From positions 1-21,500 of the IMG/VR virus record IMGVR_UViG_3300042900_000440: 21,500 nucleotides of DNA. The stretch is one strand, 5' to 3'. Below, one piece after another: positions 2,579 to 18,783 of this stretch. The DNA comes from a virus. The notes beneath the pieces were generated by a model that did no database searches, was not told the origin of the DNA, and saw only the letters and a list, made by a program, of their open reading frames with translations. Every line of letters begins with the position of its first letter. Positions within the stretch are counted from its first letter, which is position 1. A program made the translations under genes and the position numbers.

Positions 2579-3589
2579 CTACAATTTAATTTTACCGGTT
2601 GCTAATTCATATGGTAAACTAAAATCTTTATTGCTATAATGATAGTCTACTACATTCAATATATCTTTAAAGTTTTCTTCCCATACTTTTAATGTTTCTG
2701 GTGATACCTGAAATGGGTAAATTAAATTAGCTCTATCAATCACAATAAAAGTAATTACAACCTTCCATTCAGCTGCGTCTGGTAATTCTCTAAGATATTT
2801 ACCCAAACTCAACTGTTTATACATGACGGCCTGTATCCAATACTTATAATATTGCACTGAGTCTGGAAAGTCTTGAATAGCCTTACCAGTTGTTTTTAAA
2901 TCATTAATGAACAAAGTCTTAGTATTATAGTCCATTACTACATTATCTAAGATACCTTTAAATCCAAACTTATACTTGCTTGATTTTATCTGTACTCCTT
3001 CTTCATTATATATTTTTACATTTTCATCTTTATCATTATCAAGTTGCATTAAACTTCTTACAGTCTCATGGTTTCTTAATAACTCTACAGATTCTTTTGC
3101 TGTGTCTAATGTAGTTTGATCTACAATAGTCTTACCTTGTTTTACTTTTAAAAATTCAAAGTACTGTGTATTCTGTTCAGTCACCATCTTTGCAATTCTA
3201 CCTTCATCAGTTTTCAATGACTGGTGTAAATTAATACCAACAAGTACACTAATTATTGAATCAGGAAAATCTGCTAATGTCAAATCTGTATCAGGTTGTG
3301 ATTGAAAAACCTTAAAGACTTCATCTACAAGTAATCTATTATTATCTTTTGGTAAATTACTTGGTATTACAATAAATTCATCATTGAACTTTTCTGGTTC
3401 AAGTAGTAAACAATGCACTACTTTCCCGGCTACTAAATGAGCATCAACCATATCTTCTCTTTGATTTAAGATATAGTGTCTATAAAAAGCTGCTGGTGAA
3501 TACAACAGCTTATTTATACTTGAGTAACTAAAATAAAAGTCACTTTTATAAAATTGATTTAATTCTTCATTATAAGAAATACCCATCAT
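2579..3589 (-). CDS. PD-(D/E)XK nuclease, RecE/Cas4-like (DUF3799 type)
   Basis: Probable DNA exonuclease of the RecE C-terminal/YqaJ-like class, which resects double-stranded ends for phage recombination. The N-terminus has the family pattern SYSSINKLLYSP (residues 21-32), followed by the G-x-x-x-H element (AGKVVHCLLLEPEKF, H59). The catalytic core is FKGILDNVV (D215), then FINDLKTTGK with D230 and K232, followed by a QYYKYWIQAVMY helix. The length (336 aa) suits a single-domain nuclease. Start codons at 3589 and 3586 are adjacent (ATGATG); the 5' end overlaps the upstream gene by 20 bases. Natural partners for recombination in this window are the Sak4-like ATPase (14127-14852) and the SSB-like protein. 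The nuclease fold is well supported; the polarity of the enzyme cannot be read. Confidence 0.85.
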   Translation of the reverse strand: MMGISYNEELNQFYKSDFYFSYSSINKLLYSPAAFYRHYILNQREDMVDAHLVAGKVVHCLLLEPEKFNDEFIVIPSNLPKDNNRLLVDEVFKVFQSQPDTDLTLADFPDSIISVLVGINLHQSLKTDEGRIAKMVTEQNTQYFEFLKVKQGKTIVDQTTLDTAKESVELLRNHETVRSLMQLDNDKDENVKIYNEEGVQIKSSKYKFGFKGILDNVVMDYNTKTLFINDLKTTGKAIQDFPDSVQYYKYWIQAVMYKQLSLGKYLRELPDAAEWKVVITFIVIDRANLIYPFQVSPETLKVWEENFKDILNVVDYHYSNKDFSLPYELATGKIKL

Positions 3590-4880
3590 TATTTGTTTTA
3601 GGTTCTACTATTACATTGTCAAAGTCTATTAACTCTCTTGTAGGTGTGTTAACTACTTCTTCAACAACTTCTTCAATTGTTTCTACCACTTCTTCAACAA
3701 TCTCTTCTTCTACAGTTGCAGTAACAGCTTCTTCTTCTAGAGATACTATTTCTTCTACAACTTCTTCTTCAATCTCAGGAGATTGTGGTGTAAAATCACC
3801 ATGTAATGAATACTCATAGTTTAAATTCAAAACAGCCAACATCTCTTCAGTCATTGTAATTGTTTTAATTTTAAAATACGTTGAGTCACCACCATTAATG
3901 ATTTTGTCTCCTAGTTTCTTTAGTATTATGTCAACATTTTCTTTAGTCAACTTACCATGCTTTTTCAATCTCTCAATTATTTGATCTATATCTAAATGAA
4001 AATAATTGCTTCTGATATCCATTAATGCAAGTAAAGATTTAAAATTCACATGGCTTTTACTCCTTGAGTCTTGTATTCTATTATAGTAGTTATTAAACAA
4101 TAAACTTAAATATAAAATACTATCTTCAAACTGTGAATTAGCCATTATCTCCATAGCTAATGTATGATTATCTCTATCTGAGCTATCAAACATCTCACAT
4201 AAACTTTCATACATGTTCTCTTCAATAGCTAATGCATCACTACCATTTAAATACTTTAGTAATTCAGATTCATCATATATTGGCCCAGTAAAGTTAAGCA
4301 TGTCTTTATATGAACTAACATACTCATCACTAATATATTGCAATCTTTGAGATGAAAAACTTACACCTTCAGTTAATCTAAAAGGAATATGAACATCTTC
4401 TAATATACTTTTAGTATTATATTCAATAGCAATATATTCATTTTCATAGAACTCTAATGCTGTATTTACTTTATTTGCATAATAATCATCAATATAACCA
4501 CCATCAACTGCACCTTGAAAAAACTCTTTAAACTTTTCAGTTTTTACATTATAATGCCAACGTGCTTCTGTATATTTTGCAGTAGTATTATCTGAAATAA
4601 ATACTGCACTTGCCTCTTCAATCTTTGTTGTAGCTTTTATTTTATAATCTTTTGTAAGATTTTTAAGCTTTACACGAGGTATATTTACACTTTTAGCAAA
4701 AAATAATTTATCACCTGTAGTTGGTTCATAACCTGTTGTTACAGGAAACAAGGTTCTTACACTGTTAAATGTAGCATATTGTAAATCAACTTCTGTATTA
4801 ATATCAAGTAAAGATAAATCATGATTATCATAGTAATCAGAGTTTGAAATCTGTAGTTTTATTATTAATGTATTTTCCAT
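3570..4880 (-). CDS. Unknown 436-aa protein with acidic Glu/Val-rich tail
   Basis: No named family. Three parts can be seen: a beta-rich N-terminal region (about 1-170), a helical middle (about 200-330), and a low-complexity tail (about 375-415) made almost only of Glu, Val, Ile and Thr, ending in a short conserved-looking peptide. Residues about 225-262 contain a motif (SSDRDNHTLAMEIMANS...EDS...LSLLF) that is clearly repeated in the small protein at 9477-9887. It lies directly downstream of the AAA+ ATPase gene, separated by a hairpin, and overlaps the nuclease gene by 20 bases. A role as partner or substrate adaptor of the AAA+/VWA pair is a reasonable guess, not shown. Confidence 0.82.
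   Translation of the reverse strand: MENTLIIKLQISNSDYYDNHDLSLLDINTEVDLQYATFNSVRTLFPVTTGYEPTTGDKLFFAKSVNIPRVKLKNLTKDYKIKATTKIEEASAVFISDNTTAKYTEARWHYNVKTEKFKEFFQGAVDGGYIDDYYANKVNTALEFYENEYIAIEYNTKSILEDVHIPFRLTEGVSFSSQRLQYISDEYVSSYKDMLNFTGPIYDESELLKYLNGSDALAIEENMYESLCEMFDSSDRDNHTLAMEIMANSQFEDSILYLSLLFNNYYNRIQDSRSKSHVNFKSLLALMDIRSNYFHLDIDQIIERLKKHGKLTKENVDIILKKLGDKIINGGDSTYFKIKTITMTEEMLAVLNLNYEYSLHGDFTPQSPEIEEEVVEEIVSLEEEAVTATVEEEIVEEVVETIEEVVEEVVNTPTRELIDFDNVIVEPKTNNDGYFL
3646..3779 (-). repeat. GAA/GTT-rich low-complexity tract coding for an acidic tail
   Basis: Short imperfect repeats of Glu and Val codons (GAAGAAGTTGTTGAA-like units on the minus strand) in the 3' part of the 3570-4880 gene. 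Such tracts are prone to slippage length changes. The tract also creates a false Ser/Thr-rich open frame on the plus strand. Confidence 0.75.
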
Positions 4881-4892
4881 ATTTTTAAATTA

Positions 4893-4915
4893 AAAGCGGC
4901 TTTTTACACCGCTTT
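4893..4915 (-). terminator. Hairpin with T-run after the AAA+ ATPase gene
   Basis: On the minus strand AAAGCGG pairs with CCGCTTT (7 bp, 9-base loop), followed by TTTTAATTT. It sits 10 bases after the ATPase stop and 12 bases before the ATG of the 3570-4880 gene. This fits an intrinsic terminator, perhaps a leaky one, because there is no room for a promoter between it and the next gene. Confidence 0.6.
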
Positions 4916-4925
4916 ATGTTAATAT

Positions 4926-5882
4926 CTATTTAACTGCCATTTTAATTACATTAGCATTCTGCATTAGTCTAGCAAACTTAGGTTTGTTACCTGCAAGAAT
5001 CTCTTTTACCATGTAATATTTAAGGTCAGTTGTGAAAGCTTCACAATCTGTAGTCAATTTAACCAAACGGTTAATCATTGCATCACTAACTGCATGCTCA
5101 GATGCATGCTTTAATGAATAATTGATTAATCTGGTAGTAATTATACTACTAATATCAGCTCTAAAATCATCTCCTGTACCTACCGCACCATTTAATGCTC
5201 CTACTACATATGCTTCACTTGTATTAGTCATAATATCTTGAGGAGAAATAATCTTATCCATCTTGTTATTAATAAACATAGTAAACATACTAGAGAACTC
5301 AGCTCCAACAGAACCTTCACCAATCATTTGGATTAATGGTAACTGCTCTTCAAACTTTTCAATAGAGCTAATAGCATTAAAGAAAGTAGTAATAGCTCTT
5401 GGATTAACATTTTGTGTTACAAGTTCAGGATTCATTAAAATAAAATTTATTCCACGGCCATCAATTCCAAATCCTTCAGCCCACTTAGCCCAAGTATTAA
5501 CATCAAATTTCATTTCAACTGTAATATATCTTGTTGTTTGAGCAATATCTTGTGCAGTAACTGAATAGTCTCCATTATCAGGATTTTGACTTAACAATAT
5601 TGTCCATCCTTTTGGTAATTTCCAAGATACATAAGTCTGTCTATCAATTAATTCCATACAGGCTTGTATGAAGCGTAAATCAGCTCTATTCCAGTCATCT
5701 AGCAATAAAATACCACCTTTAGTTTTACCTTCAATCCATTCTGGAGCTGCATAATTCATTCTATTTCTTCCTGTTGGCTTATATCTGTTTTTGATATATG
5801 TATCCATAATTGTTTCAGGAACCCATTTGTTCATACCATCTTCTCTTACCATTTCAAACTCTTTGAATGGAAAACCAACTAA
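4926..5882 (-). CDS. MoxR-like AAA+ ATPase, exon 2 (residues 74-391)
   Basis: Second exon of an AAA+ ATPase whose first exon is 6940-7158. Joining base 6940 to base 5882 gives an uninterrupted 391-aa protein reading ...EELGD-LVGFPF..., which restores the D-L-x-G motif of MoxR-type ATPases. This exon carries Walker B (GILLLDDWNRAD, D135/D136 of the spliced protein, compare LxxDEINRA) and sensor 1 (ILLSQNPDNGDY, N173). MoxR ATPases usually act with a VWA-domain partner, and such a gene (7179-9490) lies immediately upstream. The open frame also extends through an intron-borne ATG (5885-5883), which could allow a truncated product lacking Walker A from unspliced RNA. Family assignment is strong; the substrate is unknown. 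Confidence 0.9.
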   Translation of the reverse strand, partial: LVGFPFKEFEMVREDGMNKWVPETIMDTYIKNRYKPTGRNRMNYAAPEWIEGKTKGGILLLDDWNRADLRFIQACMELIDRQTYVSWKLPKGWTILLSQNPDNGDYSVTAQDIAQTTRYITVEMKFDVNTWAKWAEGFGIDGRGINFILMNPELVTQNVNPRAITTFFNAISSIEKFEEQLPLIQMIGEGSVGAEFSSMFTMFINNKMDKIISPQDIMTNTSEAYVVGALNGAVGTGDDFRADISSIITTRLINYSLKHASEHAVSDAMINRLVKLTTDCEAFTTDLKYYMVKEILAGNKPKFARLMQNANVIKMAVK

Positions 5883-6142
5883 CATTATGTTATCTCTAAG
5901 GCTCTTTATCCTTAGATTCTGTAGTTTACGGACTTGTATTATTACTACAGTTCAGACTATATCATCTACTCCCTTTAAGTGTTGATACACATAAGGAGTA
6001 GCTCTGCGCTCGTGGGTGTTTACCATCTTCAACATCACTTGTTAAGACTCCATCACCTAGTCGTTGCACCTTCAATGTATTTCTACAAAGCTTGGCTCAT
6101 GATTGTCCTTACCAGGATGTTCCATGAGTTCACAGAGTTTAA

Positions 6143-6157
6143 AGGGGACCTAGTTGG
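6143..6157 (-). other. Internal guide sequence (P1/P10) of the ATPase-gene intron
   Basis: The minus-strand sequence CCAACTAGGTCCCCT is complementary to the joined exons AGGGGAT/TTAGTTGG over all 15 positions, counting two G-U pairs exactly at the junction. This is direct sequence evidence for both splice sites. The TAG stop of the endonuclease ORF lies inside this guide. Confidence 0.88.
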
Positions 6158-6899
6158 TTTTTAATTTAATATCAATATTAAAATTTGTTTTGCCTGATAA
6201 TACTTGTTCAGATAAAAATTTCCATACATCTTTTACACTATTGAAAGCAACAACACCATCACAATAAAAATCAAAATGTTTACCTAAATATTTAGGATCA
6301 ACATTAAATTTTTTTATTTGGGTTTTGCTATCAGAGTATCTTAACCTTATTCCATTTTTACTTAAACCTTTAACATAACCACCAGCCAATCTTTGGACAT
6401 CTTTTTTAGTAATGTTTAATTTTTCAGAAGCTTCATCTTTATCTTTAAAAGACTTAATATAATTTCCAAAATAATCATATACTTCAACAGTACAATAATC
6501 AAATTTGTTTTTATACTTACCTTCATCAATACCTTTAAGAATTGATTTGGATAATTTTTGTCTACTGTATAAAGAAAGAGTTCTGCTAATGGGGTCTAAT
6601 TGTAAATTAAAATCAGGTTTTAATGTATCAATGTAGTATTTTTCTCTTAATATTCTGTTTTCTGGCAAGCAAAATTCTAATATCTCATATTCAAAACTAT
6701 TTATGCCATGTTTATTAAAAGCCTTTTGCATAAAATCATTTGAATGTTTATTATTCAAAAGTTTTTGTCTATGCTCTAATAATCTGTCATATAAAGTTTT
6801 AGAACTACCTACATAAAATCTATTATTACATGATAACATGTATATACCAGATTTATGTCTAAGTTCTTTTGCACTTAATTGAAGAATTGATGTTTTCAT
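6150..6899 (-). CDS. GIY-YIG homing endonuclease with NUMOD1-like DNA-binding region (intron-encoded)
   Basis: Intron-encoded endonuclease that would spread the host intron by cutting intronless alleles. The N-terminal GIY-YIG domain shows GIYMLSC (18-24), FYVGSS (28-33), R39, a catalytic Glu in RILREKYYI (E86) and the conserved PDFNLQ (95-100). The C-terminal region about 138-188 (VEVYDYFGNYIKSF...AGGYVKGLSKNGIRLRY) looks like a NUMOD1-type DNA-binding motif, common in such enzymes. The start is the ATG at 6899; an in-frame TTG two codons upstream is less likely. A 14-base palindrome (6910-6923) lies just upstream of the start. The last two sense codons and the stop overlap the intron guide sequence. 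The length (249 aa) suits the family. Confidence 0.9.
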   Translation of the reverse strand: MKTSILQLSAKELRHKSGIYMLSCNNRFYVGSSKTLYDRLLEHRQKLLNNKHSNDFMQKAFNKHGINSFEYEILEFCLPENRILREKYYIDTLKPDFNLQLDPISRTLSLYSRQKLSKSILKGIDEGKYKNKFDYCTVEVYDYFGNYIKSFKDKDEASEKLNITKKDVQRLAGGYVKGLSKNGIRLRYSDSKTQIKKFNVDPKYLGKHFDFYCDGVVAFNSVKDVWKFLSEQVLSGKTNFNIDIKLKTN

Positions 6900-6909
6900 A
6901 TACAAATAT

Positions 6910-6923
6910 ACAAATATATTTGT
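6910..6923. repeat. Perfect 14-base palindrome upstream of the intron ORF
   Basis: ACAAATATATTTGT reads the same on both strands and lies 11 bases before the ATG of the GIY-YIG ORF, within the first 30 bases of the intron. In RNA it could form a weak hairpin affecting access to the start codon; in DNA it could bind a dimeric protein. AT-rich chance occurrence is also possible. Confidence 0.4.
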
Positions 6924-6939
6924 AGAAAACTAAATCTTA

Positions 6940-7158
6940 ATCCCCTAATTCTTCAATTTGTGATAAATTTAACTTAACAACATCTAAATCTAATTCTTCA
7001 CCGACTTGCATTATAGATGATGTTTTACCTAAACCGGCTTCACCAACAACAGCTAGTGCTGTAGGCATCTTACCAGTTTGTTGAAGTATCTCATTGTTTT
7101 TAATAATATGTTTAATAAAGTTTTTTAACTCATCTGCATTTAATTGAATCTGACTCAT
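6940..7158 (-). CDS. MoxR-like AAA+ ATPase, exon 1 (residues 1-73)
   Basis: First exon of the AAA+ ATPase continued at 4926-5882. It contains Walker A, VVGEAGLGKTSS (GEAGLGKT at 39-46), after a short N-terminal helix. Without splicing the frame ends one codon after GGG GAT at an intron TAA (6939-6937), giving a useless 73-aa fragment; this identifies a 5' splice site rather than a real gene end. The ATG at 7158 is 20 bases below the stop of the VWA gene and has an A-rich leader, so the two are probably co-transcribed. Exon length (219 bases) is a whole number of codons. Confidence 0.9.
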
Positions 7159-7178
7159 CTTTTTTAATTTTTTTTAAT

Positions 7179-8154
7179 TTATAACTCAAGTTTTATCACC
7201 TTTCCCGGAAGGCTATTATTCATATGGGATTGTTCAGACAGCACCCATAAAACAGGAGCTTTTGGTTTAACATCAGTATAACATTCACCATCAGTGAAAT
7301 ATACCAAGCTAGTAAACTTTCTTATATTTTCATTATAATACTCAAGGACGGGAGTAAATTCAGTCCCACCTCTACCATATATCTTAATTTCATTTTTGCC
7401 TTTATACGGTTCAATACTTCTTATAACAGTATCACATTGTATAATAGTAATATCTACTCCTTGCTTATAGATGTGATGTATTTCATTCATGAACTCATGC
7501 AACTCTTTATCACATACAGAACCTGAAGTATCAATAGCCAACAACATATGTTGTTTCATTTTAATCTTTAGACCAGGATTATCAGAATATCTTCTATTCT
7601 CTTTTCTCCTTATCTTTTTAGTATACACTTTTGATGATACACCAGTAAATCTTCTTATATAACCTTTCCAATCAAACTTAGGGGCTGTGATTGCTTCCAT
7701 TTCAAGTAATCCCTCAATTTCTCCAGGAACATTACCTCTTTTCTTTTCAGTCATTTCCTTAGCATCATTGAGAATCTTATTCAATTGCTTCTCAATTAGC
7801 TTCTGTTCAGCTTCAGTCATGTCTTCAAAGTCAGACCAAGTTGGATGATCAGAGTCCATATCATCTCCGGAATCCATTTGATCACATACTTTATCATAGT
7901 TGTCATCACCACTTGTACCTTCTTCACCACCTTTGTCTTTCTTCTCTTTGGCTTGTTGTAGTTTCTCATAATAATATCTACAACCTGCCTTTCTATCTAA
8001 GTTCAAATCAGGATAATCATCTATATTAACACCACCTTCTGGAAGATACTGATTATCAATGAATTGATTTATTTCCATGTCCATTGCGTAATTAGCAAGC
8101 TTCTTATCACTAAACTTAAAATACATAGTAAGATGGCCAAATGCGATATGCAAG
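7179..8154 (-). CDS. Metallopeptidase-like/VWA protein (DUF2201 + VWA-like), exon 2 (end of codon 76 to residue 400)
   Basis: Second exon of a 400-aa protein. Joined to 9264-9490, the sequence reads ...LLKHEL-LHIAFGHLTM..., the zinc-binding HExxH...GH signature of the DUF2201 metallopeptidase-like domain. A charged linker follows (about 140-190, rich in Asp, Glu and Lys). A C-terminal VWA-like domain has an intact MIDAS: LLAIDTSGS (spliced residues about 280-288), GRGGTEF and FTDGE. Cellular proteins with this two-domain layout are usually found next to a MoxR-type ATPase, as here (4926-7158, 20 bases downstream). The pair probably forms a chaperone-like complex that remodels a target; the phage target is unknown. 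In the unspliced RNA the exon has no normal ATG start in frame; its first in-frame codon is TTG. Confidence 0.9.
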
Positions 8155-9263
8155 CATTTTTGTTAACTCATGCTTTCACATGAGATCAGACTATACCTTC
8201 ATCCACTAGGGATGGTCTATTGTAGTCGTTGAACCTCTTTCTTGGTACATATGTGTCTAAGTAATCAATAAAAACTTGTCTTTTTCTATTTAAACATAAT
8301 GTATGATTTTTATACATAAAGTTATATAAATTAAGTGTATCATGCAAAGAATGCTGTGTAACATAACACTCATTGCTTTGCTTAATAGTTTTATTTTTTA
8401 CTGGTAATATTTTTAATAAGTCAATCATAAATTCTTTTGAGCCTGAACAAAAACCTGATTTTAGGATTTTCCAATCACTATTTTTTAAGTTTTTGTAAGC
8501 TCCAACTGTACCATCACCGTCAAAATAACCTCTAATAAAATGATGAACTAATTCATCCTCTAGTATAGGTATTCTTATTGTTTTAGTTTTAGCTGGTGTA
8601 CATCCTAAATTATTTAAATCATTATACATTTGAGCTGATGTTATTTGAGCTTTCCATATATATTTTTTAAATACTTTTTGATATTCACAATTAGGAGAAT
8701 TATTTGATCCAACATCTAATAAAAATTGTTCTACCCAATCTTTATCTTTTGATGAAAAAATTATTTGTCCTGATTTACTTGCTTTTTTTGTAATATTACC
8801 ATCAGCAAAAAGAACACCTAACCAATATGCTTTTTTTTCTGTATCAATTACATTAAAAAAGTCATCTTGACAAGTATATTTCATTGCTGATTCAGACAAA
8901 GTTCTTGATTTTATATTATTTCTTTTTAAAATTGCAAATACAGTTTTTACATTTACTCGTAATATGCTTGCAATCTTTTTACCTGATAATTTATCAGTAA
9001 CATAATAATCAATTACTTTTTGTTCTAATTCTATTTTCATATATGTAAGTATTTATACTACAATATACCAAAAATAAACCATATAACCAAGAAATTTGGC
9101 TGCGGATTTCCCATTTGGACATCTCTATCTTTTTTACTATACCTGAGTAATTAATTCAGCCACATACTACCTCACGGTGCATGCTTAGTAGATAGAGCTT
9201 TAGGGAGTCCCCGTCAATTTAAGACATTTTACACATACATTACTGCATGAGGAGCCCTAGTTG
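8155..9263 (-). ncRNA. Group I self-splicing intron in the metallopeptidase/VWA gene, with a LAGLIDADG ORF
   Basis: 1109-base intron interrupting codon 76 inside HExxH. It starts after a T (9264) and ends with a G (8155); removal restores CTC TTG CAT (Leu-Leu-His). P1 is short: exon GAGCU pairs with GGCUC a few bases into the intron (near 9256-9252), with a U-G pair at the splice site. Group IA-like core elements are clear on the minus strand: P-like AAATTGACGGGGACTCCCTA (9220-9201), Q-like AAATCCGCAGCCAAAT (9109-9094), R-like GGTTCAACGACTAC (8235-8222) and S-like GGTATAGTCT (8197-8188). A P9 hairpin CTCATG/CATGAG (8184-8167) precedes the 3' end. I found no convincing P10. The 9041-9256 stretch without a gene is this intron's 5' half. 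Confidence 0.9.
8186..9040 (-). CDS. LAGLIDADG homing endonuclease (intron-encoded)
   Basis: Intron-encoded DNA endonuclease, 284 aa. Both LAGLIDADG helices are present: YWLGVLFADGN (72-82) and HFIRGYFDGDGTV (167-179), each ending in the acidic catalytic residue (D80 and probably D176). This is therefore a monomeric two-motif enzyme. The N-terminal ~50 residues (KKIASILRVNVKTVFAILKR at 21-40) look like a resolvase-type helix-turn-helix. The ORF starts at the ATG at 9040, after the P6-side core element, and runs through the R and S core elements. Its last ~19 codons (FNDYN...VDEGIV) are therefore read from P7/P3/P8 RNA and the protein end is constrained by ribozyme sequence. Confidence 0.92.
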   Translation of the reverse strand: MKIELEQKVIDYYVTDKLSGKKIASILRVNVKTVFAILKRNNIKSRTLSESAMKYTCQDDFFNVIDTEKKAYWLGVLFADGNITKKASKSGQIIFSSKDKDWVEQFLLDVGSNNSPNCEYQKVFKKYIWKAQITSAQMYNDLNNLGCTPAKTKTIRIPILEDELVHHFIRGYFDGDGTVGAYKNLKNSDWKILKSGFCSGSKEFMIDLLKILPVKNKTIKQSNECYVTQHSLHDTLNLYNFMYKNHTLCLNRKRQVFIDYLDTYVPRKRFNDYNRPSLVDEGIV

Positions 9264-9490
9264 AGCTCATGTTTTAATAAACCATGCTTATGATCATCAC
9301 TTAATCCAGTCCAGAAATTTTCATTAATAGTAAGCTGATAATTGATATTATGCTTACTTACACCAGCAGTTGGAACTCTTTTATTATCCCAAACCTTATT
9401 CAACATAATTAAAAAGAACCCGTAATAGGGCTCCTTCAACATCAAATCTTTACTGGTTTTTGCTAAACTATCTTCTCTACTCTTTGCCAT
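9264..9490 (-). CDS. Metallopeptidase-like/VWA protein, exon 1 (residues 1-75 and part of codon 76)
   Basis: First exon of the protein continued at 7179-8154. It encodes the start of the DUF2201-type metallopeptidase-like domain and ends ...HGLLKHEL, supplying H74 and E75 of the HExxH zinc motif; H78 comes from exon 2. Without splicing the frame ends at TAG 9259-9257, a few bases into the intron. The ATG at 9490 overlaps the 3' end of the 9477-9887 gene by 14 bases, suggesting translational coupling. Exon length (227 bases) leaves two bases of codon 76, completed by the first base of exon 2. Confidence 0.9.
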
Positions 9491-9887
9491 CCTTTAATGT
9501 TATTGAATAGTTTAATTTATCTACGGGATAACCCCAACTTTTCATACTTTTCTTTAATGTCTCAACATGTAATTGTAAAAACATATCTACTACATCAGAT
9601 TCAGCAGTTAAATTAATTAATGTTGTCAAAACATTATTAACTGTAGGTTTATATTCACTATAAATACCCATACCTCTTATAACATCAATAACATTAGGTA
9701 TATTTTCTTCCCAATAATTATTATCTTTATTACTTTCTGCATATAATAAAACTAACCATGCTTTAGATTTCTCAATATCACAGTTATTTACTATCTCATT
9801 TGCAACTAACCAATTATCTTTATCAGTTGATGCATACATATCCATTATACTTCTTACACTCTCTTTTGTCAGTACTACCTTTTCCAT
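9477..9887 (-). CDS. Small helical protein sharing a motif with the 3570-4880 protein
   Basis: Soluble helical protein of 136 aa with no named family that I recognise. Residues about 12-46 (SIMDMYASTDKDNWLVAN, then EIVNN...EKS...LVLLY) match residues about 225-262 of the 3570-4880 protein in spacing and key positions: M-Y/F-x-S-x-D-x-D-N, A-x-E-I, N, E-x-S and L-x-L-L. The ATG at 9887 overlaps the stop of the upstream small gene (TGATG); a TTG one codon earlier is unlikely. The 3' end overlaps the VWA gene start by 14 bases, so it belongs to the same operon. Because the two motif-bearing genes bracket the AAA+/VWA genes, it may be part of the same complex. Confidence 0.8.
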   Translation of the reverse strand: MEKVVLTKESVRSIMDMYASTDKDNWLVANEIVNNCDIEKSKAWLVLLYAESNKDNNYWEENIPNVIDVIRGMGIYSEYKPTVNNVLTTLINLTAESDVVDMFLQLHVETLKKSMKSWGYPVDKLNYSITLKDGKE

Positions 9888-10054: not shown

Positions 10055-10390
10055 TTATAAATTTTTTGGATCAACACCTCTTACTTTTATCAAATACTGC
10101 TTGTATTGTTCTATAGTTATTGTACGTACACCTTCATATAGATCACCTCTATCAAATATTTCTCTTACAGTTGCTAAAGAATCAAATGTATTCATATATA
10201 ATTCACCCATAAATGATGGCTCTCTGTTAAAAACAGATGGATCTATCAATACTTGAGTTTCTTTTACACCTTCACTATTCCTTACACAAATAAATTCTAC
10301 TTGTAAACTTGGCTCATCTGGATTTGCCTCATTTGTGAAAACCACTTTGATTCTCTCATTCTCTAGTTTAATTTCTTTTACTTCTTCCAT
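10055..10390 (-). CDS. Hypothetical protein, 111 aa
   Basis: No family recognised. The protein begins MEEVKEIKLENERIKVVFTN, a beta-strand-like start, with no membrane segment or clear catalytic motif. An in-frame ATG at 10423 would add 11 residues. I prefer 10390 because it overlaps the upstream stop as TAATG, the same arrangement seen at 17463 and 20848. It is part of a chain of small co-directional genes between the primase block and the AAA+/VWA block. Confidence 0.72.
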   Translation of the reverse strand: MEEVKEIKLENERIKVVFTNEANPDEPSLQVEFICVRNSEGVKETQVLIDPSVFNREPSFMGELYMNTFDSLATVREIFDRGDLYEGVRTITIEQYKQYLIKVRGVDPKNL

Positions 10391-10737
10391 TAGTCTTCTA
10401 TTTTTAAAGTTTTTATAGCCCATAACTCAGGTTTTCCAGATTCAATCATCTTAACCCATTCCTTTGCTGTAGGAATATATCCATTACAATCTTCTTTTAC
10501 ATGTTGTTCAGCAACATATCTTGTATATACAGTCTTACCATCAAAGTTGATAAAGCTTGATCCAAATACTTTCTCACATTCAAATATACCTTCACTATGG
10601 TGACGGAACATTCTATGCATACTGTGACCAACCCAAGCCTTAGTTTCATCTAGCCACTCATGAATAGCTTGATAATCAACCTGTCTACCACCCCATTTTC
10701 TTACTGAGGACTTACAATGCTCTAAAGGATGTGCCAT
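10390..10737 (-). CDS. DUF6915-like protein
   Basis: 115-aa protein that matches from memory a conserved family of unknown function in phages and bacteria (DUF6915). Features are an opening MAHPLEHCKSSVRKWGG, DYQAIHEWLDETKAW, the His-rich HSMHRMFRHHSEGIFECEKV and a late VAEQHVKEDCNGYIPTAKEW. The many conserved His and Glu residues hint at a metal site, but no activity is known to me. The stop overlaps the next start (TAATG); the 5' neighbour is the DUF3820-like mini-gene, 11 bases away. Confidence 0.8.
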   Translation of the reverse strand: MAHPLEHCKSSVRKWGGRQVDYQAIHEWLDETKAWVGHSMHRMFRHHSEGIFECEKVFGSSFINFDGKTVYTRYVAEQHVKEDCNGYIPTAKEWVKMIESGKPELWAIKTLKIED

Positions 10738-10901: not shown

Positions 10902-11294
10902 CTATCTCTTATTTTTCTCAAACAAGTTACCATAATGATTAAACTCTTCATAATCAGTAACTCTTATGCTATTTTGAATTTCATATGTACCTTCTTCTAC
11001 ATCAATATTTACATATCCAAAGCCACCATCATTGTTCCACCAGTCTTCAATGTCATTCAATAACATCTCTTGACAGTAATCTTCAAGCAATGAATATAAC
11101 TCTGAGTTATAATCATTTAAATCAGTTCCACCTTCCCAACTTTGTAATTGGTCAAAGTCAACATCTGGATCAGTTGTTATTCTTATAGACTCAATAGCTC
11201 CACTATCTCCACCACCATCATAATTTACAGATACCTTTTTAATACCTGCATTTACTAAACCAATCATTATTTTTTCTAATACATTTTCAGCCAT
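10902..11294 (-). CDS. DUF6878-like protein, 130 aa
   Basis: The protein carries the signature VNYDGGGDSGAIESI early on and DWWNNDGGFGYVNIDVEEG later. I recognise this as the DUF6878 type: a Gly-rich, Asp-rich pattern in small proteins often found on phages and plasmids. It is strongly acidic with no membrane segment. The stop abuts the start of the DUF3820-like gene. Function unknown; family call from memory. Confidence 0.78.
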   Translation of the reverse strand: MAENVLEKIMIGLVNAGIKKVSVNYDGGGDSGAIESIRITTDPDVDFDQLQSWEGGTDLNDYNSELYSLLEDYCQEMLLNDIEDWWNNDGGFGYVNIDVEEGTYEIQNSIRVTDYEEFNHYGNLFEKNKR

Positions 11295-11306
11295 AACTTT
11301 TTTATT

Positions 11307-11702
11307 TTATACTACAAATTTCCATTCAAAACCACCTGCTGTAGCTCTTATTCCTCTAGCACATTTACCAATATTATCACGCAATATGTTATTTATAAAA
11401 GCAGCTTCTTCTATATTTTTATAGGTACAAATGTATACTCCTTTATAATATTTTTGCACTTGTTTTTCTACTGCTTTTTTTAAATCAATACAACTTCCAA
11501 TTTTTTGTAAAGGTTTTTTAGTAAAAACTTCTCTAAATTGATAGCCTCCACAAAAATTAATTTCTCCTCTTGTGGCTTGTTGTATAGAAGCAGTACTTTT
11601 AATACTTGATTTTACAGGCAATAGATCAATGATTCCTTGATATGTTTCTGCTTCTAATACTTCTAATAAATGACCTTCAAGGTCGTACATTGCTATTTTC
11701 AT
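11307..11702 (-). CDS. Protein with two NUMOD1-like DNA-binding repeats, no nuclease domain
   Basis: 131-aa protein that appears to consist of two related units. The first is MYDLEGHLLEVLEAETYQGI (residue 5 onward) ending in GGYQFREV. The second is YICTYKNIEEAAFIN, ending in the characteristic CARGIRATAGGFEWKFV. This resembles NUMOD1-type modules (Y-D-x-x-G-x-x-x-x-x-F/L...G-K-x-x-x-A-G-G-Y/F-x-W) that usually sit behind a GIY-YIG or HNH nuclease. No nuclease motif is present here. The gene directly follows a SegE-like GIY-YIG gene (11712-12137), 9 bases apart, so the two may act together or derive from one endonuclease. Family call is moderate. Confidence 0.7.
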   Translation of the reverse strand: MKIAMYDLEGHLLEVLEAETYQGIIDLLPVKSSIKSTASIQQATRGEINFCGGYQFREVFTKKPLQKIGSCIDLKKAVEKQVQKYYKGVYICTYKNIEEAAFINNILRDNIGKCARGIRATAGGFEWKFVV

Positions 11703-11711
11703 AACTTTTTA

Positions 11712-12137
11712 TTATTTAAACTTATAAAATTTACCAAGTATATTCCCATTAAGGAATTCCTCTTTTTCAAGCACTTCATATTTAAATTGATGCTTTACTT
11801 CTTGATAAGTCAATTCTGTTGCTGAGTAGCAAATCATTAGAATTTCCCTTTTAATTTTACATCCAGCTTTATGAGCTTCTTTTAATTGTTGATTACTACT
11901 ATGGTAAGCCATAAAGTTAGGTTTAGTAACCCTAGTGTATTTCTTTAGTCTTTTATCAGTAGTTTGAGCTAATGCTTTTTTACCCATAGGTTTCTTGATA
12001 TTAGCAAAAAAGTTCTTCTTACCAATATATGCATAGCTATTACCATTTAATATTACTGACATATGATATACAAAACCAATTGCTCCTTCAGGAATATCAG
12101 ATTCTGTAAACACTTTTCCTTTATGTATCCAACTCAT
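11712..12137 (-). CDS. SegE-like GIY-YIG endonuclease (free-standing)
   Basis: 141-aa protein resembling the T4 SegE group of free-standing GIY-YIG homing endonucleases. GFVYHMSV and YAYIGKKNFF form the GIY-YIG-like pair. The central region AYHSSNQQLKEAHKAG aligns with the family's YYGSS...LK pattern, and REILMICYSATELTYQEVKHQFKYEVL with its conserved C-terminal helix containing the catalytic Glu. It is not inside an obvious intron: it has its own leader and lies between two intact small genes. Such enzymes promote spread of the phage region that encodes them. The GIY-YIG call is fairly firm; its target site is unknown. Confidence 0.82.
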   Translation of the reverse strand: MSWIHKGKVFTESDIPEGAIGFVYHMSVILNGNSYAYIGKKNFFANIKKPMGKKALAQTTDKRLKKYTRVTKPNFMAYHSSNQQLKEAHKAGCKIKREILMICYSATELTYQEVKHQFKYEVLEKEEFLNGNILGKFYKFK

Positions 12138-12148
12138 AATCTTAATTT

Positions 12149-12382
12149 TTATGCATCACCTTTTGGTATAATCTTAACACCAGCAAATCCTGCATTATTA
12201 TTCAATAATTCTAATATTTTTCTTTGATCATCATCATCTGCATACTTTTCTAATATCTCTATAAGAGTAGTTACAGCTGATGCAATATGTAATGGTGTTA
12301 TACCATCAATGTTTACCTTTTTAGTAAATTCACCAGGATTATCCTTTTTGAATTTAAACCCAATTTTAATTTCACCTTTCAT
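12149..12382 (-). CDS. Hypothetical protein, 77 aa
   Basis: No family recognised. Begins MKGEIKIGFKFKKDN, with a central helix (LHIASAVTTLIEILEKYA) and an Asp-rich turn (DDDDQRK). The start overlaps the 3' end of the primase gene by 11 bases, pointing to translational coupling with it. Confidence 0.7.
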   Translation of the reverse strand: MKGEIKIGFKFKKDNPGEFTKKVNIDGITPLHIASAVTTLIEILEKYADDDDQRKILELLNNNAGFAGVKIIPKGDA

Positions 12383-13358
12383 GTATTGCTTTTTTTAATA
12401 ATGGAAATAATTCTTCTTTTACTTTTTGCAGTCCATGTGCTTTAATAGAGTCTGATACATCTTTTTCCATATCAAGAACTATATAGGATAAACCATATCT
12501 TTCTTTATATTTTTCCATAGCCATTTTACCGGCATCATCATTGTCAAACAATACACATATACTTTTATACTTACTCTTTAGTTTTTCAATACTGGTTTCT
12601 TTTATAATAGTATTCTCACTATCTGGTGCTATACACTCAACATTGTTAAAACCAAGCTTATTAAAAGCCATTACATCTTTAAGTGATGATGTAATAACCA
12701 AATAATCTTTAGTCAATGTTAATTGCTCAGAACCTTGGATATAATTAGCCATCTTTAAAAACTTTCTGTTTAATATTTTTGGCTGATAAATCTTATATAG
12801 TGTACCATCATTTTTAAAATAACCATACAAGTTAAATCCTGTAATTGTAATTTCAGATACACTACCATCTGGTTCATTTCTTGATAACTTATAATACTCC
12901 AAGGGAGATACATTGTAAGCATCTAACATTTTTGAACCAATGTGATAATCACCCCAATACTTTTGATCAAAATTACTCCAGTGTCTTATAGTATAGTCAC
13001 ATACTTTATAATTCTCATAACTTTTGATTTCAGGAGCACTATATGATTTATTAAAATCTATATATGCTTTGTAATCATCTATTATTTTAAATGTAGCAAG
13101 TCTTCTATCAAGATTAAACATATGTTCAATAAGGGATATTGAATCTCCTTGTATTCCAGATGAAAAATCTTTATACTTATAAGTCATTGTGTTGGCATCA
13201 ACATATACATACATTGATGGCGTCTTTTCAGTCTTAAATGCAGATTTTACTTTAATCTGTTGACCATCTAATTTTTCAGTAAGATTTAAGTAATGTTCAT
13301 ATATCCATGTGACAGGAACATTACCTATTGATATAGCATTTTTCTTTGTTGAAATCAT
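12372..13358 (-). CDS. DNA primase with TOPRIM domain, degenerate zinc-finger region
   Basis: Probable DnaG-type primase that makes RNA primers for the phage polymerase with the nearby DnaB-type helicase. Residues 39-52 (SAFKTEKTPSMYVY) correspond to the C-P-F-H-x-E-K-T-P-S-F stretch of the CHC2 zinc finger, and the following KYKDFSSGIQGDSISL to its second half, but the zinc-binding Cys and His residues are absent. The TOPRIM domain shows VITSSLKDVMAF (221-232), where the usual catalytic Glu is replaced by Ser/Thr, and CVLFDNDDAG (268-277) with the D-x-D motif intact. A length of 328 aa means no C-terminal helicase-binding domain of cellular size. Primase identity is likely; whether it is active without the Glu cannot be told from sequence. 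Confidence 0.82.
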   Translation of the reverse strand: MISTKKNAISIGNVPVTWIYEHYLNLTEKLDGQQIKVKSAFKTEKTPSMYVYVDANTMTYKYKDFSSGIQGDSISLIEHMFNLDRRLATFKIIDDYKAYIDFNKSYSAPEIKSYENYKVCDYTIRHWSNFDQKYWGDYHIGSKMLDAYNVSPLEYYKLSRNEPDGSVSEITITGFNLYGYFKNDGTLYKIYQPKILNRKFLKMANYIQGSEQLTLTKDYLVITSSLKDVMAFNKLGFNNVECIAPDSENTIIKETSIEKLKSKYKSICVLFDNDDAGKMAMEKYKERYGLSYIVLDMEKDVSDSIKAHGLQKVKEELFPLLKKAIHER

Positions 13359-13376
13359 AATTATTAACTTTAATAA

Positions 13377-13405
13377 AAAAGGGAGCCTTTGTCTGACTCC
13401 CTTTT
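13377..13405 (-). terminator. Intrinsic terminator between the SSB-like gene and the primase gene
   Basis: On the minus strand AAAAGGGAG pairs perfectly with CTCCCTTTT (9 bp, 11-base loop), followed by further T's (TTATT). It lies 10 bases after the stop of the SSB-like gene. The primase ATG (13358) is only 18 bases beyond, leaving no room for a promoter. It may therefore be a leaky terminator that lowers primase expression relative to SSB. Confidence 0.75.
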
Positions 13406-14126: not shown

Positions 14127-14852
14127 TTATTTATAAACTTCATCCCAGTGAGTAACTATATCACCTTTATCATTAATTTCACTAATCACTATCTCTGCAT
14201 TTCTTAAATGCTCTGGTCTTGCACCACAAGTAGTTTCTTCATTAGTCTTAAAGTTTAACATAACCTTGTTACCCTTTCTAAACATATAACCAATTGCATC
14301 TGAATTTGCACAGATTAAAGACTTAATCTTACCAGTTAAATCAATATTAGCTGCCATTACCATTTCACCCTTATCATCAACTTGTTTGTCTTTGATGTGA
14401 CCTGATAGAATAATATGTTCAGCTAATGTATCTACATAATTCAAAACATCAAAGAATGCTTCTCTTATGTATAAATAACCAGCACCATTTGGTAAAGTAA
14501 TTACGTTGTCTCCATCATAACTTTTACCCATTGGAGTAGCTTTATACTTTTTAACAGCTAAAGGCATAACCATTTCTTCCAATGCAGTTACAGTATCAAT
14601 AGTGATAACCCTATAAGGTTTACCTGCTTCTTCTACTGCTTTACCAACTGCTAATAATTCTTTAAGACTATTAGCTTTTACTTTCATTGCATCTACATAA
14701 TCAGTCCCATTTTCCAAATCAATTATTAAATTACCTTCTAAACCTGCAAAAGCGGTAGTTTTACCTGTCTTTGGCTTAGAGTAAATTAACAATCTTTTTG
14801 GATTAACTCTTGTTGCGCTCACTTTCTTAGTGGGCAATACCAATCCTTCCAT
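14127..14852 (-). CDS. Sak4-like RecA-fold ATPase (AAA_24), single-strand annealing recombinase
   Basis: 241-aa RecA-core ATPase of the phage Sak4 type, which promotes annealing with help from SSB. Walker A is YSKPKTGKTT (24-33), followed by NLIIDLENGTDY, a typical acidic strand. Walker B is YRVITIDTVTALEE (80-93, D86), and ILSGHIKDK (148-156) is the conserved sensor-like His/Lys element. The length fits stand-alone Sak4. It sits between an acidic-tailed unknown protein (4 bases upstream) and the SSB-like gene. A RecE-like nuclease elsewhere in the window (2579-3589) could supply single-stranded ends. Confidence 0.88.
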   Translation of the reverse strand: MEGLVLPTKKVSATRVNPKRLLIYSKPKTGKTTAFAGLEGNLIIDLENGTDYVDAMKVKANSLKELLAVGKAVEEAGKPYRVITIDTVTALEEMVMPLAVKKYKATPMGKSYDGDNVITLPNGAGYLYIREAFFDVLNYVDTLAEHIILSGHIKDKQVDDKGEMVMAANIDLTGKIKSLICANSDAIGYMFRKGNKVMLNFKTNEETTCGARPEHLRNAEIVISEINDKGDIVTHWDEVYK

Positions 14853-15438: not shown

Positions 15439-17274
15439 TTATTTGGTTCCTATTCTTTTTTCTTGTTGAGCAGGAGTATTCATCTCTGCAATACTCATCT
15501 TTTCAAACTCTGCTTTAAAGAAGCTTAATCTTGTATCACCATTTCTACATTTTAAAAAGTGTAATACCATTACTCTATCATTCTCAATTATAAATCTATC
15601 AGGGCCATAGAATCTGATCTTTTGTTTTGCTGGTCTATTAATACCTATTACGGTATCAGCATGTTGTAATAACGCATCAGCACCAAATATATCTGATTCT
15701 AATACATAATTACCATACTTGCCATCTTCTGATCTTTCAGGATTATCAATATTTCTATTTAACTGACTTAATATTATAAATGCTATAGGGTATATCCTTT
15801 TCAATGATGTTAATGCCTCACCAAGATTATTTAGTGTCTCATTCTTATCTTTTTCTGTTTGTGCTTTTTTTACAAGCAAAGAGTGGTCTAATGATATCAA
15901 TGTTTTCTTAAAATGTCTTACACCGTTATCATCAACGGTAGAATAATAAGCCATATATTCTTGAATAGTTCTAATGAACTCATCTACAGTACATGGTTTC
16001 TCAACAATATCAATAGGATACTTTACTTTTTCTTTGGCATAGTTATAACACTTTTGTAAATCTTCAGGACTCAATTGTCCATCAGCACTACATAAATACT
16101 TATATGACTTACCAATTATACTTGAGTACTCTCTAATTGCAGAAGATCTAGCTAACATCTCAAACTGAAACTGTAATACTCTAAAGTCTTCAGCTGGATT
16201 TAAAAGAAATGACTCTCTCACTATTTGTTCTACTATTAAAGTTTTACCTGAATTATGAACAACAAAACCATTTGCAATAAAATTATTATATGGATCTTTC
16301 ATTGATACATCATAAGTCATTTCATCCCCTATGTAATTAATAGATACAATTTTTTCTTTTTGCACATGGTTTAAACCAAGTCTAGATCTATCATTATGTA
16401 AAGCATGGTGCTCTTTAACTGATAATAATTGTAAATTACTTATATCATTGTTTAAAGGATTTTGATCCATATGATGTATTTCCATTGTCATATCAGAAAA
16501 TACAAAATTGTTTGGTGCATTTACTTTATCAAGAAATTCAGTTAATTCTAAATCATTAAGGTTAGCATCATATACAGCTCTTGCTTCAGAAATTCTATGA
16601 TATGTATATTTACCTGTTATTTTAACTTTTGCTGAAGGATAATAAGCCATTTTTTTTATTATATGAACTCTTTTGTGAGTTATTTTTTCAGCTTTATCTT
16701 TTTTCTTTGGTTCAGCTTTACATACAATAAAATCACCTATGCTTAACTCTTTTAATTCTTTAAAATCATCACAAAAGTCAACTAAAAATCTATGATCTAA
16801 AGTTGTTTTTATTGTTTTGCCTGTTTCAGTTGTTACTAAATAAACAGGTTTAATCCCAGATTCATACACTGCTTCAATTTGATTTAAACCTGTTAAGTTT
16901 TCATCATATTTATAACATTGAGTATTAGTTGTAATAGTATTATTCCAACCTCTATCTCTAGATGACATATCTGTATGTCTTAAACCATTAAATTTATAGT
17001 ATATATCTTTTAGACTATACCATCTGCCAGATCCTTTTGGACCTTTTCTTGCAATATACATTAGTGAATCACCAGATAAACAAGCAGGTCTTCCACCAAT
17101 TACAGTCATTGTATTCCATTCAATACCATCTGTCATTGCATCATTAAATTTAGGCCATGGAGTTCTAAGACTTTTAATCTCACCTGCCATTCTACCTTTT
17201 AAATAATGTAATGATTCCTGAAAACCTTCTTTCTGACTATTCCACTTTGTTGGTGTTTCTGCTTTTTTCAACAT
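15439..17274 (-). CDS. dnaB: DnaB-type replicative helicase precursor interrupted by an intein
   Basis: Hexameric replicative helicase (SF4). The precursor is 611 aa from the ATG at 17274 (a TTG three codons earlier is less likely); removal of a 277-aa intein leaves about 334 aa. The mature enzyme has only the RecA-like DnaB C-terminal domain. Walker A is restored as VIGGRPA-SGKTLI. FQFEMLARSSAIREYSS (motif H2), TLISLDHSLL (Walker B), IILSQLNRN (H3) and HFLKCRNGDTRLSFFKAEFE (H4) follow in order. No DnaB N-terminal domain is present, as in some other phage helicases. It lies between a 58-aa membrane protein gene and an acidic-tailed protein gene. Helicase activity depends on protein splicing, because the intein cuts the ATP-binding loop. 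Confidence 0.93.
   Translation of the reverse strand: MLKKAETPTKWNSQKEGFQESLHYLKGRMAGEIKSLRTPWPKFNDAMTDGIEWNTMTVIGGRPACLSGDSLMYIARKGPKGSGRWYSLKDIYYKFNGLRHTDMSSRDRGWNNTITTNTQCYKYDENLTGLNQIEAVYESGIKPVYLVTTETGKTIKTTLDHRFLVDFCDDFKELKELSIGDFIVCKAEPKKKDKAEKITHKRVHIIKKMAYYPSAKVKITGKYTYHRISEARAVYDANLNDLELTEFLDKVNAPNNFVFSDMTMEIHHMDQNPLNNDISNLQLLSVKEHHALHNDRSRLGLNHVQKEKIVSINYIGDEMTYDVSMKDPYNNFIANGFVVHNSGKTLIVEQIVRESFLLNPAEDFRVLQFQFEMLARSSAIREYSSIIGKSYKYLCSADGQLSPEDLQKCYNYAKEKVKYPIDIVEKPCTVDEFIRTIQEYMAYYSTVDDNGVRHFKKTLISLDHSLLVKKAQTEKDKNETLNNLGEALTSLKRIYPIAFIILSQLNRNIDNPERSEDGKYGNYVLESDIFGADALLQHADTVIGINRPAKQKIRFYGPDRFIIENDRVMVLHFLKCRNGDTRLSFFKAEFEKMSIAEMNTPAQQEKRIGTK
16252..17082 (-). other. Intein with HNH endonuclease domain in the DnaB P-loop
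   Basis: 277-residue intein inserted between Ala and Ser of GRPA/SGKT. It starts with Cys (CLSGDSLMYI, block A). Block B is GKTIKTTLDHRFLV with the T-x-x-H pair. The end is NFIANGFVVHN (blocks F and G), with the terminal His-Asn before a +1 Ser. The middle holds an HNH homing endonuclease: MEIHHMDQNPLNNDISNLQLL followed by EHHALHND. All residues needed for splicing and for HNH cleavage are present, so both activities may be intact. It shares the insertion position reported for inteins in other DnaB-like helicases (Walker A). Confidence 0.94.
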
Positions 17275-17286
17275 CTCATGCAAATA

Positions 17287-18054: not shown

Positions 18055-18783
18055 TTACCATTTTATATCAAAGTTATAATTCTTTTTTGTAAGATCAGCT
18101 ACCTTGTGGAAAACATCTTGACAATCCCATTCTTTTAAGTGAGAATATGCAGCTGATGCAGGATGAGATACAAAGAATTTATAACAGTTGTTGTTAATAT
18201 GTACTGAATCTTCTTGTGCTTTCTTACCCATGAATACATAGATTAATCCAGGATTATATGAATTAAGATAGTCTAATAAATAAGCCATCATAGGTTTCCA
18301 TAACTCTGAATGTGATCCCGGTTTCCCTATTGTACATGTAAGAGCACTATTAATCATAAGTATACCCTGATTACTCCATCTTTTCAGATCAATATCCGTT
18401 GATACTAATGAACCAGAGTAATACTCATCTTTATAAACAGTTCTGTTTACTGCATCAAGTATAAACCTAAGACTTGGTAATGCTTTCTTTTCAAAACTAC
18501 ATGAGAATGCTATCCCATCAGCTTGCTCAATTCCCGGATATGGATCTTGTCCAACAATAACTACTTTGAGATCAGTATAAGGTGTTTCCTCAAATGCTCT
18601 AAACAAGTATTTCATAAATGGTGTAAATCTTCTATCTTCTTGTGAGTCTTTAATCAGTTTCAATAAAATATTATCAAATTCAGTACTATATATAAATCCT
18701 CTGAGCACTCTTGCCCATCCTGAATCAATAAGTTTTGCATTTAATTTTTCTTTTATATCATTAATATCTATATTTGTTGTCAT
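18055..18783 (-). CDS. ung: Uracil-DNA glycosylase
   Basis: Family 1 uracil-DNA glycosylase, which removes uracil from DNA by base excision. Visible motifs are the water-activating loop VVIVGQDPYPG (74-84, D80), the uracil-binding LMINSALTC (142-150), and the DNA-intercalation loop region VSHPASAAYSH (205-215, H207), where the usual HPSPLS is HPASAA. The length (242 aa) is normal. The ATG at 18783 has a pure A/T leader shared with the divergent plus-strand gene. It is the first gene of the replication block after the strand switch. Confidence 0.95.
   Translation of the reverse strand: MTTNIDINDIKEKLNAKLIDSGWARVLRGFIYSTEFDNILLKLIKDSQEDRRFTPFMKYLFRAFEETPYTDLKVVIVGQDPYPGIEQADGIAFSCSFEKKALPSLRFILDAVNRTVYKDEYYSGSLVSTDIDLKRWSNQGILMINSALTCTIGKPGSHSELWKPMMAYLLDYLNSYNPGLIYVFMGKKAQEDSVHINNNCYKFFVSHPASAAYSHLKEWDCQDVFHKVADLTKKNYNFDIKW

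Follow-up and report, generated by a model that had tools for sequence, protein, structure and literature searches.

The subject of this analysis is a five-gene operon in a 21.5 kb stretch of viral DNA (positions 1 to 21,500 of the IMG/VR virus record IMGVR_UViG_3300042900_000440; hereafter, the window), which has a GC content of ~30% and carries nearly all of its likely genes on the minus strand. The operon encodes, in this order, a small helical protein (SMALL), a metallopeptidase combined with a VWA domain (hereafter, the VWA protein), a MoxR-like AAA+ ATPase, a large protein with an acidic tail (LARGE), and a PD-(D/E)XK nuclease (Table 1). An earlier note on this DNA had described four co-directional genes, among them those of a MoxR-like ATPase and, at 3570-4880, of a protein with an acidic tail. 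This description holds: all four products are encoded on the minus strand close to the coordinates of the note, the ATPase has a P-loop and MoxR-type motifs, and the acidic tail is present. The extent of the module had to be enlarged by the nuclease gene, and neither 4926-7158 nor 7179-9490 is a single reading frame as the note had it: both genes are divided into two exons, and the intervening 1057 and 1109 nt, respectively, contain endonuclease open reading frames (ORFs).

Table 1. Features of the window and intron sites in related contigs (the slash marks the position of the insertion; related contigs are designated by L numbers)
Feature	Coordinates	Strand	Characteristics
SMALL	9477-9887	-	136 residues, helical, predicted ARM/HEAT-like; first operon gene; overlaps VWA start
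VWA exon 1	9264-9490	-	Ends with KHEL/, inside HExxH
Group I-like intron in VWA gene	8155-9263	-	1109 nt; in HExxH codons; missing from relatives with intact gene
LAGLIDADG_3 homing endonuclease ORF within VWA intron	8186-9040	-	PF14528 33.0 bits; phrog_4645 E 5e-52
VWA exon 2	7179-8154	-	Rest of DUF2201_N, DUF2201 VWA; intact MIDAS residues
ATPase exon 1	6940-7158	-	P-loop GEAGLGKT; ends with EELGD/
Group I intron in ATPase gene	5883-6939	-	1057 nt; RNA core 5934-6172
GIY-YIG/NUMOD1 homing endonuclease ORF within ATPase intron	6150-6905	-	PF01541 38.1 bits; PF07453 23.9 bits
ATPase exon 2	4926-5882	-	Begins with LVGFP; Walker B LLLDD; sensor 1 SQNP; ends with TTRY; phrog_1297 E 7e-22
LARGE	3570-4880	-	436 residues; ~52-215 weakly BRCT-like; ~217-334 domain common with SMALL; 366-436 disordered, acidic
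PD-(D/E)XK nuclease	2579-3589	-	Overlaps LARGE; last conserved operon gene; PF12705 35.4 bits; PF12684 31.8 bits
SegE-type GIY-YIG gene	11712-12137	-	After primase, before the SMALL-VWA-ATPase-LARGE cluster
Primase	12372-13358	-	Replication block
RecA-like AAA_24 ATPase	14127-14852	-	Replication block
DnaB helicase with intein	15439-17283	-	Replication block
UDG	18055-18783	-	Replication block
ATPase intron site 1			P-loop GxAGL/GKT; L008, L015, L039
ATPase intron site 2			EELGD/LVG; L002, L066
ATPase intron site 3			NRAD/, just after Walker B; 16 contigs; L008, L018 show ORF at cut contig
VWA intron site 1			HExxH; L002, L003, L050, L090; L017 cut
VWA intron site 2			Invariant D101 of NxAxD/xxxN; L090, L072, L104; L084 cut

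The gene order SMALL-VWA-ATPase-LARGE-nuclease is almost invariant in 85 distinct related viral contigs, counted after 14 loci (13 duplicates and the window's own slice) were dropped and with genes too near a contig end excluded. The ATPase gene is followed by LARGE in 57/57 cases and LARGE by the nuclease gene in 49/49; the VWA gene is preceded by SMALL in 70/74 cases, and SMALL is followed by VWA in 72/73, the exception being an antisense endonuclease ORF located between them. The four VWA genes without an adjoining SMALL are those of L017, a contig that starts inside an intron; L039, where an antisense LAGLIDADG ORF (359-1090) intervenes; and L035 and L036.

The core proteins

The joined ATPase comprises 391 residues, with the intron inserted after codon 73 (EELGD/LVGFP), and is confirmed by uninterrupted alleles in 47 related contigs identified by a script criterion. 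The P-loop residues G42, G44 and K45, the sensor residue N173, and R191 are invariant among 16 ATPases from the clade of the window and from other phages. Given the match of exon 2 to the PHROGs family annotated as ‘ATPase’ and the profile matches in PDB to midasin (E 1e-20) and 2r44 (E 1e-6), the kinship of this protein with MoxR-like AAA+ ATPases appears clear at the level of sequence, although it falls short of membership in a curated family. A single scan of genome contigs confirmed no cellular or prophage relative.

The joined VWA protein comprises 400 residues and is confirmed by 61 uninterrupted related contigs under the corresponding script criterion. The insertion is located between the second and third bases of codon 76, inside the HExxH motif (HEL/LHIAFGH). 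The HExxH and VWA protein of the earlier note is borne out by the matches of the spliced product to PF13203 (57.7 bits; cut-off 23.2) and PF09967 (66.4 bits; cut-off 26.4), with the correction that in the window the HExxH motif is formed only when the exons are joined. The residues H74, E75 and H78 of this motif, as well as H83, are invariant in 18 VWA proteins from the clade and six other phages. The metal ion-dependent adhesion site (MIDAS) is complete, with D-x-S-x-S (D284, S286, S288), T340 and D364 invariant in the same 18 proteins. PHROGs (phrog_1314) and several phage records (AR9, S-TIM5, Ab09, and Moorella phage) give the DUF2201 metallopeptidase-VWA family the label ‘HNH endonuclease’, which looks like a propagated mislabel. 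A match to the Rfam family SNORD104 inside the VWA coding sequence (7847-7912, minus strand; 25.6 bits, below gathering) was taken as chance.

SMALL and LARGE

The earlier note had proposed a motif of ~40 residues common to the first and last of its four proteins. The similarity is real and extends to ~115 residues: SMALL and LARGE match each other in BLASTP (E 4e-7), and profile-profile comparison with hhalign gives a probability of 97.9 and an E-value of 4.8e-13 over 115 columns. The SMALL profile matches all 63 LARGE ORFs of at least 300 codons (E 5e-14 to 2e-7). These BLASTP, profile and profile-profile matches led us to reject chance or a simple repeat as the origin of the motif. Nor is the motif scattered or a common unrelated repeat, outcomes that the earlier note had also contemplated: the VWA gene is next to SMALL in each of the 41 contigs found by SMALL alone, and the ATPase-LARGE linkage is without exception.

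Among the relatives of SMALL, no more than one or two yielded Pfam or PHROGs matches, all of them stray; the same holds for the relatives of LARGE in PHROGs, the Pfam scan covering the LARGE of the window alone. A search of a phage collection with SMALL and LARGE produced no match at E up to 1, and the LARGE profile had no sequence match in PDB. The structural model of SMALL (predicted local distance difference test, pLDDT, 90; predicted template modeling score, pTM, 0.82) consists of helices, and comparison to solved folds gave a best Z-score of 6.2, with many ARM rows at Z ~5; per the note of the tool, helical-repeat superpositions have no diagnostic value under Z 13. Two designed proteins are likewise matched by the SMALL profile, and one of them recurs among the ARM-like rows. 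The model of LARGE (pLDDT 81, pTM 0.64) includes an alpha/beta part at 52-215 with a weak resemblance to BRCT (best Z 6.1; BRCT in 11/50 rows). In a library of viral models, LARGE matched four phage proteins, one of them named CrAss-like (E 1e-11 to 1e-7). We treat the ARM/HEAT, BRCT and viral-model resemblances, which come from predicted structures, as leads on fold, not function.

Divergence of SMALL and LARGE proceeds at about twice the rate of the ATPase and the VWA protein and at 1.5 times that of the nuclease (median distances 0.71 and 0.66 compared with 0.27, 0.30 and 0.45, respectively). The two proteins co-vary, with a partial r of 0.52 when the other three proteins are allowed for (30 operons, giving 414 non-independent pairs after removal of 21 near-identical ones). 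Tandem duplicates were observed for both genes: L066 carries two copies of LARGE (11172-13377), and L012 carries two copies of SMALL (6884-7722). In addition, L032 (216-704) and L061 (225-713) encode, far upstream of the operon, a 163-residue protein in which the SMALL-type motif is weakly recognizable (E 8e-5 and 1e-4) and which has no Pfam match; the operon SMALL of L032 (8350-8748) lies directly before the VWA gene, which starts at 8754.

Introns in the ATPase and VWA genes

The intron in the ATPase gene scores 67.3 bits with the Rfam group I intron model RF00028, above the gathering score of 50. At the placed junctions, each intron of the window is preceded by U and ends in G, with a P1-like pairing visible by eye. 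The junctions were fixed to within a few bases from uninterrupted relatives; at some sites, 1-3 neighboring positions fit equally well. Both introns are presumably spliced.

Insertions of the intron type were identified, by hand reading, in at least 29 of the 85 distinct contigs (near-identical contigs counted apart) at five sites (Table 1). RF00028 also matches at the two further ATPase sites in relatives (L053, 81.4 bits; L015, 59.1 bits), so that group I introns are detected by the covariance model at three ATPase sites. In five whole relative loci, the same type of search at the Rfam gathering score found 0/5 introns; ORF-free slices do score. An extra stretch in the ATPase gene of L065 is an in-frame insert and was rejected as an intron.

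Most of the sites fall in conserved parts of the proteins. In alignments dominated by the window's own clade, 1 in 20,000 random draws reached the mean conservation observed around the three ATPase sites, and 20 in 20,000 reached that around the two VWA sites. Taken singly, four of the sites are within the top 3% of windows by conservation, and the NRAD site is unremarkable (top 17%). The LAGLIDADG ORFs in L050 and L090 are 86-89% identical to that of the window, compared with 61-80% for the VWA exons; this difference points to recent horizontal homing, as judged from sequence identity. GIY-YIG ORF matches located between the VWA and ATPase genes of L021 (370-957) and L033 (9244-9762) resemble free-standing homing endonucleases.

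Introns with endonuclease ORFs have precedents in crAss-like phages, where group I introns of this kind and inteins occupy core genes (Yutin et al. 2021). The hosts named in the available part of that work are the MCP, PolB, primase, ATP_43b, TerL and RNAP genes (PMC7886860); the MoxR and VWA genes and the five sites described here are not among the hosts named there.

Genomic context and possible function of the operon

Upstream of the operon lie replication genes. The RecA-like protein is 43-47% identical to proteins mostly of crAss phages (15 of 49 records listed). The primase matched 92 records, mainly ‘uncultured’ and Bacteroides phages, with two from Cellulophaga; among the matches listed, the ‘uncultured’ ones are crAss phages. 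The gene order helicase, RecA-like protein, 200-residue protein, primase, exonuclease is the same in the crAss phages cr55_1, cr10_1 and cr118_1, and the nuclease of the window is related to those of the corresponding blocks. Therefore, by the sequences of the RecA-like protein, primase and nuclease and by block order only, we assign this segment to a crAss-like replication block; the host is probably a member of Bacteroidota. The Walker A motif of the DnaB helicase is interrupted by an HNH-type intein (GGRPA/C...HN/SGKT; PF14890, 58.5 bits; HNH_3, 29.4 bits), and a DUF6915 protein (10390-10737, minus strand; 131 bits) is encoded just upstream of the operon.

MoxR-VWA pairs are not new to phages: the MoxR/VWA-metallopeptidase pair is described for jumbo phages in the available text of Iyer et al. 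2021 (PMC7824862), and 391 phage records contain a match to the VWA protein of the window at E up to 1e-3, the match covering more than 80% of this protein in 21 of them. The ATPase matched 63 phage records, none over 80% of its length. The known pair (N4 gp24/gp25, AR9 gp28/gp29, phrog_1297, phrog_1314) consists, likewise, of an adjacent or near-adjacent ATPase and DUF2201 fusion, and the proteins of the window have the same invariant residues. By the annotation of Ab09, N4 gp25 is a relative of the VWA protein, and we take N4 gp24 to be the ATPase member of the pair. The pair of the window differs in being flanked by SMALL and LARGE and then the nuclease, in being split by introns, in its D-D Walker B motif, and in gene order, with VWA first in the window, whereas the ATPase comes first in the five named phage records examined that hold both genes.

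SMALL and LARGE look, from sequence searches, like lineage-specific add-ons to this pair, because neighborhoods of the pair in other phages yielded no match better than E 0.1. The profiles were run against ~7 kb on each side of family members in S-TIM5, AR9, Moorella phage, Ab09, phiKT1024 and phiFa (best E 0.1) and against the replication blocks of cr55_1, cr273_1 and cr10_1 (best E 0.2), and a search at E up to 0.01 in cr55_1, cr273_1, cr10_1, cr118_1 and two gut contigs was empty. At this sensitivity, we reject the shared motif as a widespread module accompanying any phage AAA+/VWA pair. Gut contigs L110 and L111 (GC 0.58 and 0.62), which carry an AAA+/VWA pair with VWA first, were taken for cellular DNA. 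In cr10_1 (L108, 17481-19611), an AAA_5 ATPase adjoins a DUF7192 protein, and neighbors in cr118_1 are similarly annotated; here too, an AAA+ gene has an adjacent partner in the replication block, but the families differ and no SMALL or LARGE relative was found, so this is possibly an independent AAA+/partner pair.

The cellular chaperones NorQ-NorD, RavA-ViaA and CbbQ-CbbO likewise combine a MoxR-type AAA+ ATPase with a VWA partner; the system of the window differs by the fusion of VWA to a zincin-like domain and by the extra ARM-like proteins. In NorQ-NorD, the VWA finger of NorD enters the NorQ pore, and a twisted linker is also involved, according to the available part of PMC13036017. By analogy, the spliced ATPase would form an AAA+ ring on which the spliced VWA protein would dock as a cochaperone in the manner of NorQ-NorD, and might, besides, act on clients by cleavage or metallation. 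SMALL and LARGE, with their common ARM/HEAT-like domain, could serve as adaptors delivering clients to the machine, LARGE contributing an alpha/beta head and the acidic tail. The targets would most likely not be virions but complexes of phage replication or recombination, because the operon lies between primase/helicase genes and the PD-(D/E)XK nuclease gene and because its relatives are expressed early or in the middle of infection. Both introns lie at strongly conserved codons, those of HExxH itself in the case of the VWA gene, and would have to be spliced out for a working machine. We put the probability of this reading, a single AAA+/VWA remodeling machine with SMALL and LARGE as adaptors, most likely acting on replication or recombination complexes and with core genes that host mobile introns, at about one half. 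A more specific version, a replisome-remodeling MoxR/VWA-protease with paralogous ARM-type proteins as its two adaptors, one of which has a BRCT-like head, and with both core subunits under splicing control because the introns interrupt the ATPase and the zinc site of the protease and the machine would become active only once spliced, we consider improbable. The linkage of LARGE to the nuclease gene makes it doubtful that the machine is self-contained, as the earlier note had supposed.

Several observations weigh against the remodeling machine. Walker B reads D-D in 11/11 aligned ATPases of the clade, with E as the second residue in five other phages; judging from this motif, ATP hydrolysis may be slow or absent, and one possibility is that slow or VWA-stimulated hydrolysis could account for it. 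The ATPase passes no Pfam cut-off, the only match being to AAA_22 (17.9 bits; cut-off 27). The RF00028 match of the VWA intron is partial and below gathering (26.7 bits, E 4e-5), being scored over the 5' half only, because the ORF separates this half from the 3' half. In L035 and L036, the VWA gene directly follows the primase gene, and the rest of the locus contains no match to SMALL. The Z-scores of the ARM and BRCT superpositions (under 8) do not reach the caution level set by the tool. The raw distances of LARGE correlate with those of the VWA protein (r 0.84) no less than with those of SMALL (r 0.81), so that shared ancestry may underlie the co-variation of SMALL with LARGE. Finally, we infer both the interactions among these proteins and their client, and in two phages the surroundings of the pair fit virion work: in S-TIM5, it lies beside Hsp20 and structural genes, and in phiKT1024, the VWA gene is near tail genes.

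The latter two cases favor the alternative that the pair is a virion assembly chaperone that assembles and processes structural proteins. This role was proposed for group 2.2 jumbo phages by Iyer et al. 2021, with Acidianus two-tailed virus as the precedent cited in the available text (PMC7824862). In the available part of PMC4193335, moreover, four virion proteins of roseophage RPP1 are encoded near the gp24/gp25 homologs; the same part describes N4 gp24/gp25 as middle genes. Against such a role, the pair is associated with replication genes or located behind an early promoter not only in the window, but also in Ab09 (N4-like; near DNA polymerase and N4 gp37-like genes), Moorella phage (near DNA helicase) and AR9 (near topoisomerase II, with an early promoter just before the ATPase gene), and the operon is tied to the nuclease gene throughout. 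In phiFa, the pair is near RNase H, with recombination and DnaB genes 6-7 kb on. On balance, we regard a virion function of this operon as unlikely.

An equally unlikely alternative is host take-over or counter-defense, in which SMALL and LARGE would recognize a changing host or defense protein that the AAA+/VWA-protease unfolds or cleaves. Their fast divergence, the early or middle expression that is likely by analogy, and the dispensability of SMALL in one lineage are consistent with this role. Counter-defense genes, however, tend toward patchy distribution, whereas almost all of the relatives seen have retained this operon, which has a fixed linkage with a replication-type nuclease. The least probable alternative, that SMALL and LARGE are mere operon neighbors, helical proteins unrelated to the AAA+/VWA machine and making no contact with it, draws on the occurrence of the pair without them in other phages, on the commonness of ARM-like helical patterns and on the matches to designed proteins, and is countered by the persistent flanking arrangement, the overlap of SMALL with the VWA start and the co-variation of SMALL with LARGE.

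The MoxR/VWA-metallopeptidase pair in phages is already known, as are introns in core genes of crAss-like phages, the latter from the available part of PMC7886860. A literature search with little reach into subscription papers found no paper dealing with this operon or with introns located in MoxR or VWA genes of phages, and no demonstrated client of the phage pair. To our knowledge and within the searches made, the constant five-gene operon, the paralogous adaptor candidates and the clustering of introns in the two core genes are new. A lineage in which the pair is locked to two adaptor candidates and a replication-block nuclease offers a direct handle on the target of this pair. The locus is, in addition, a two-gene intron hotspot, with five entry sites, four of which lie where the proteins are most conserved, and with evidence of recent horizontal movement.

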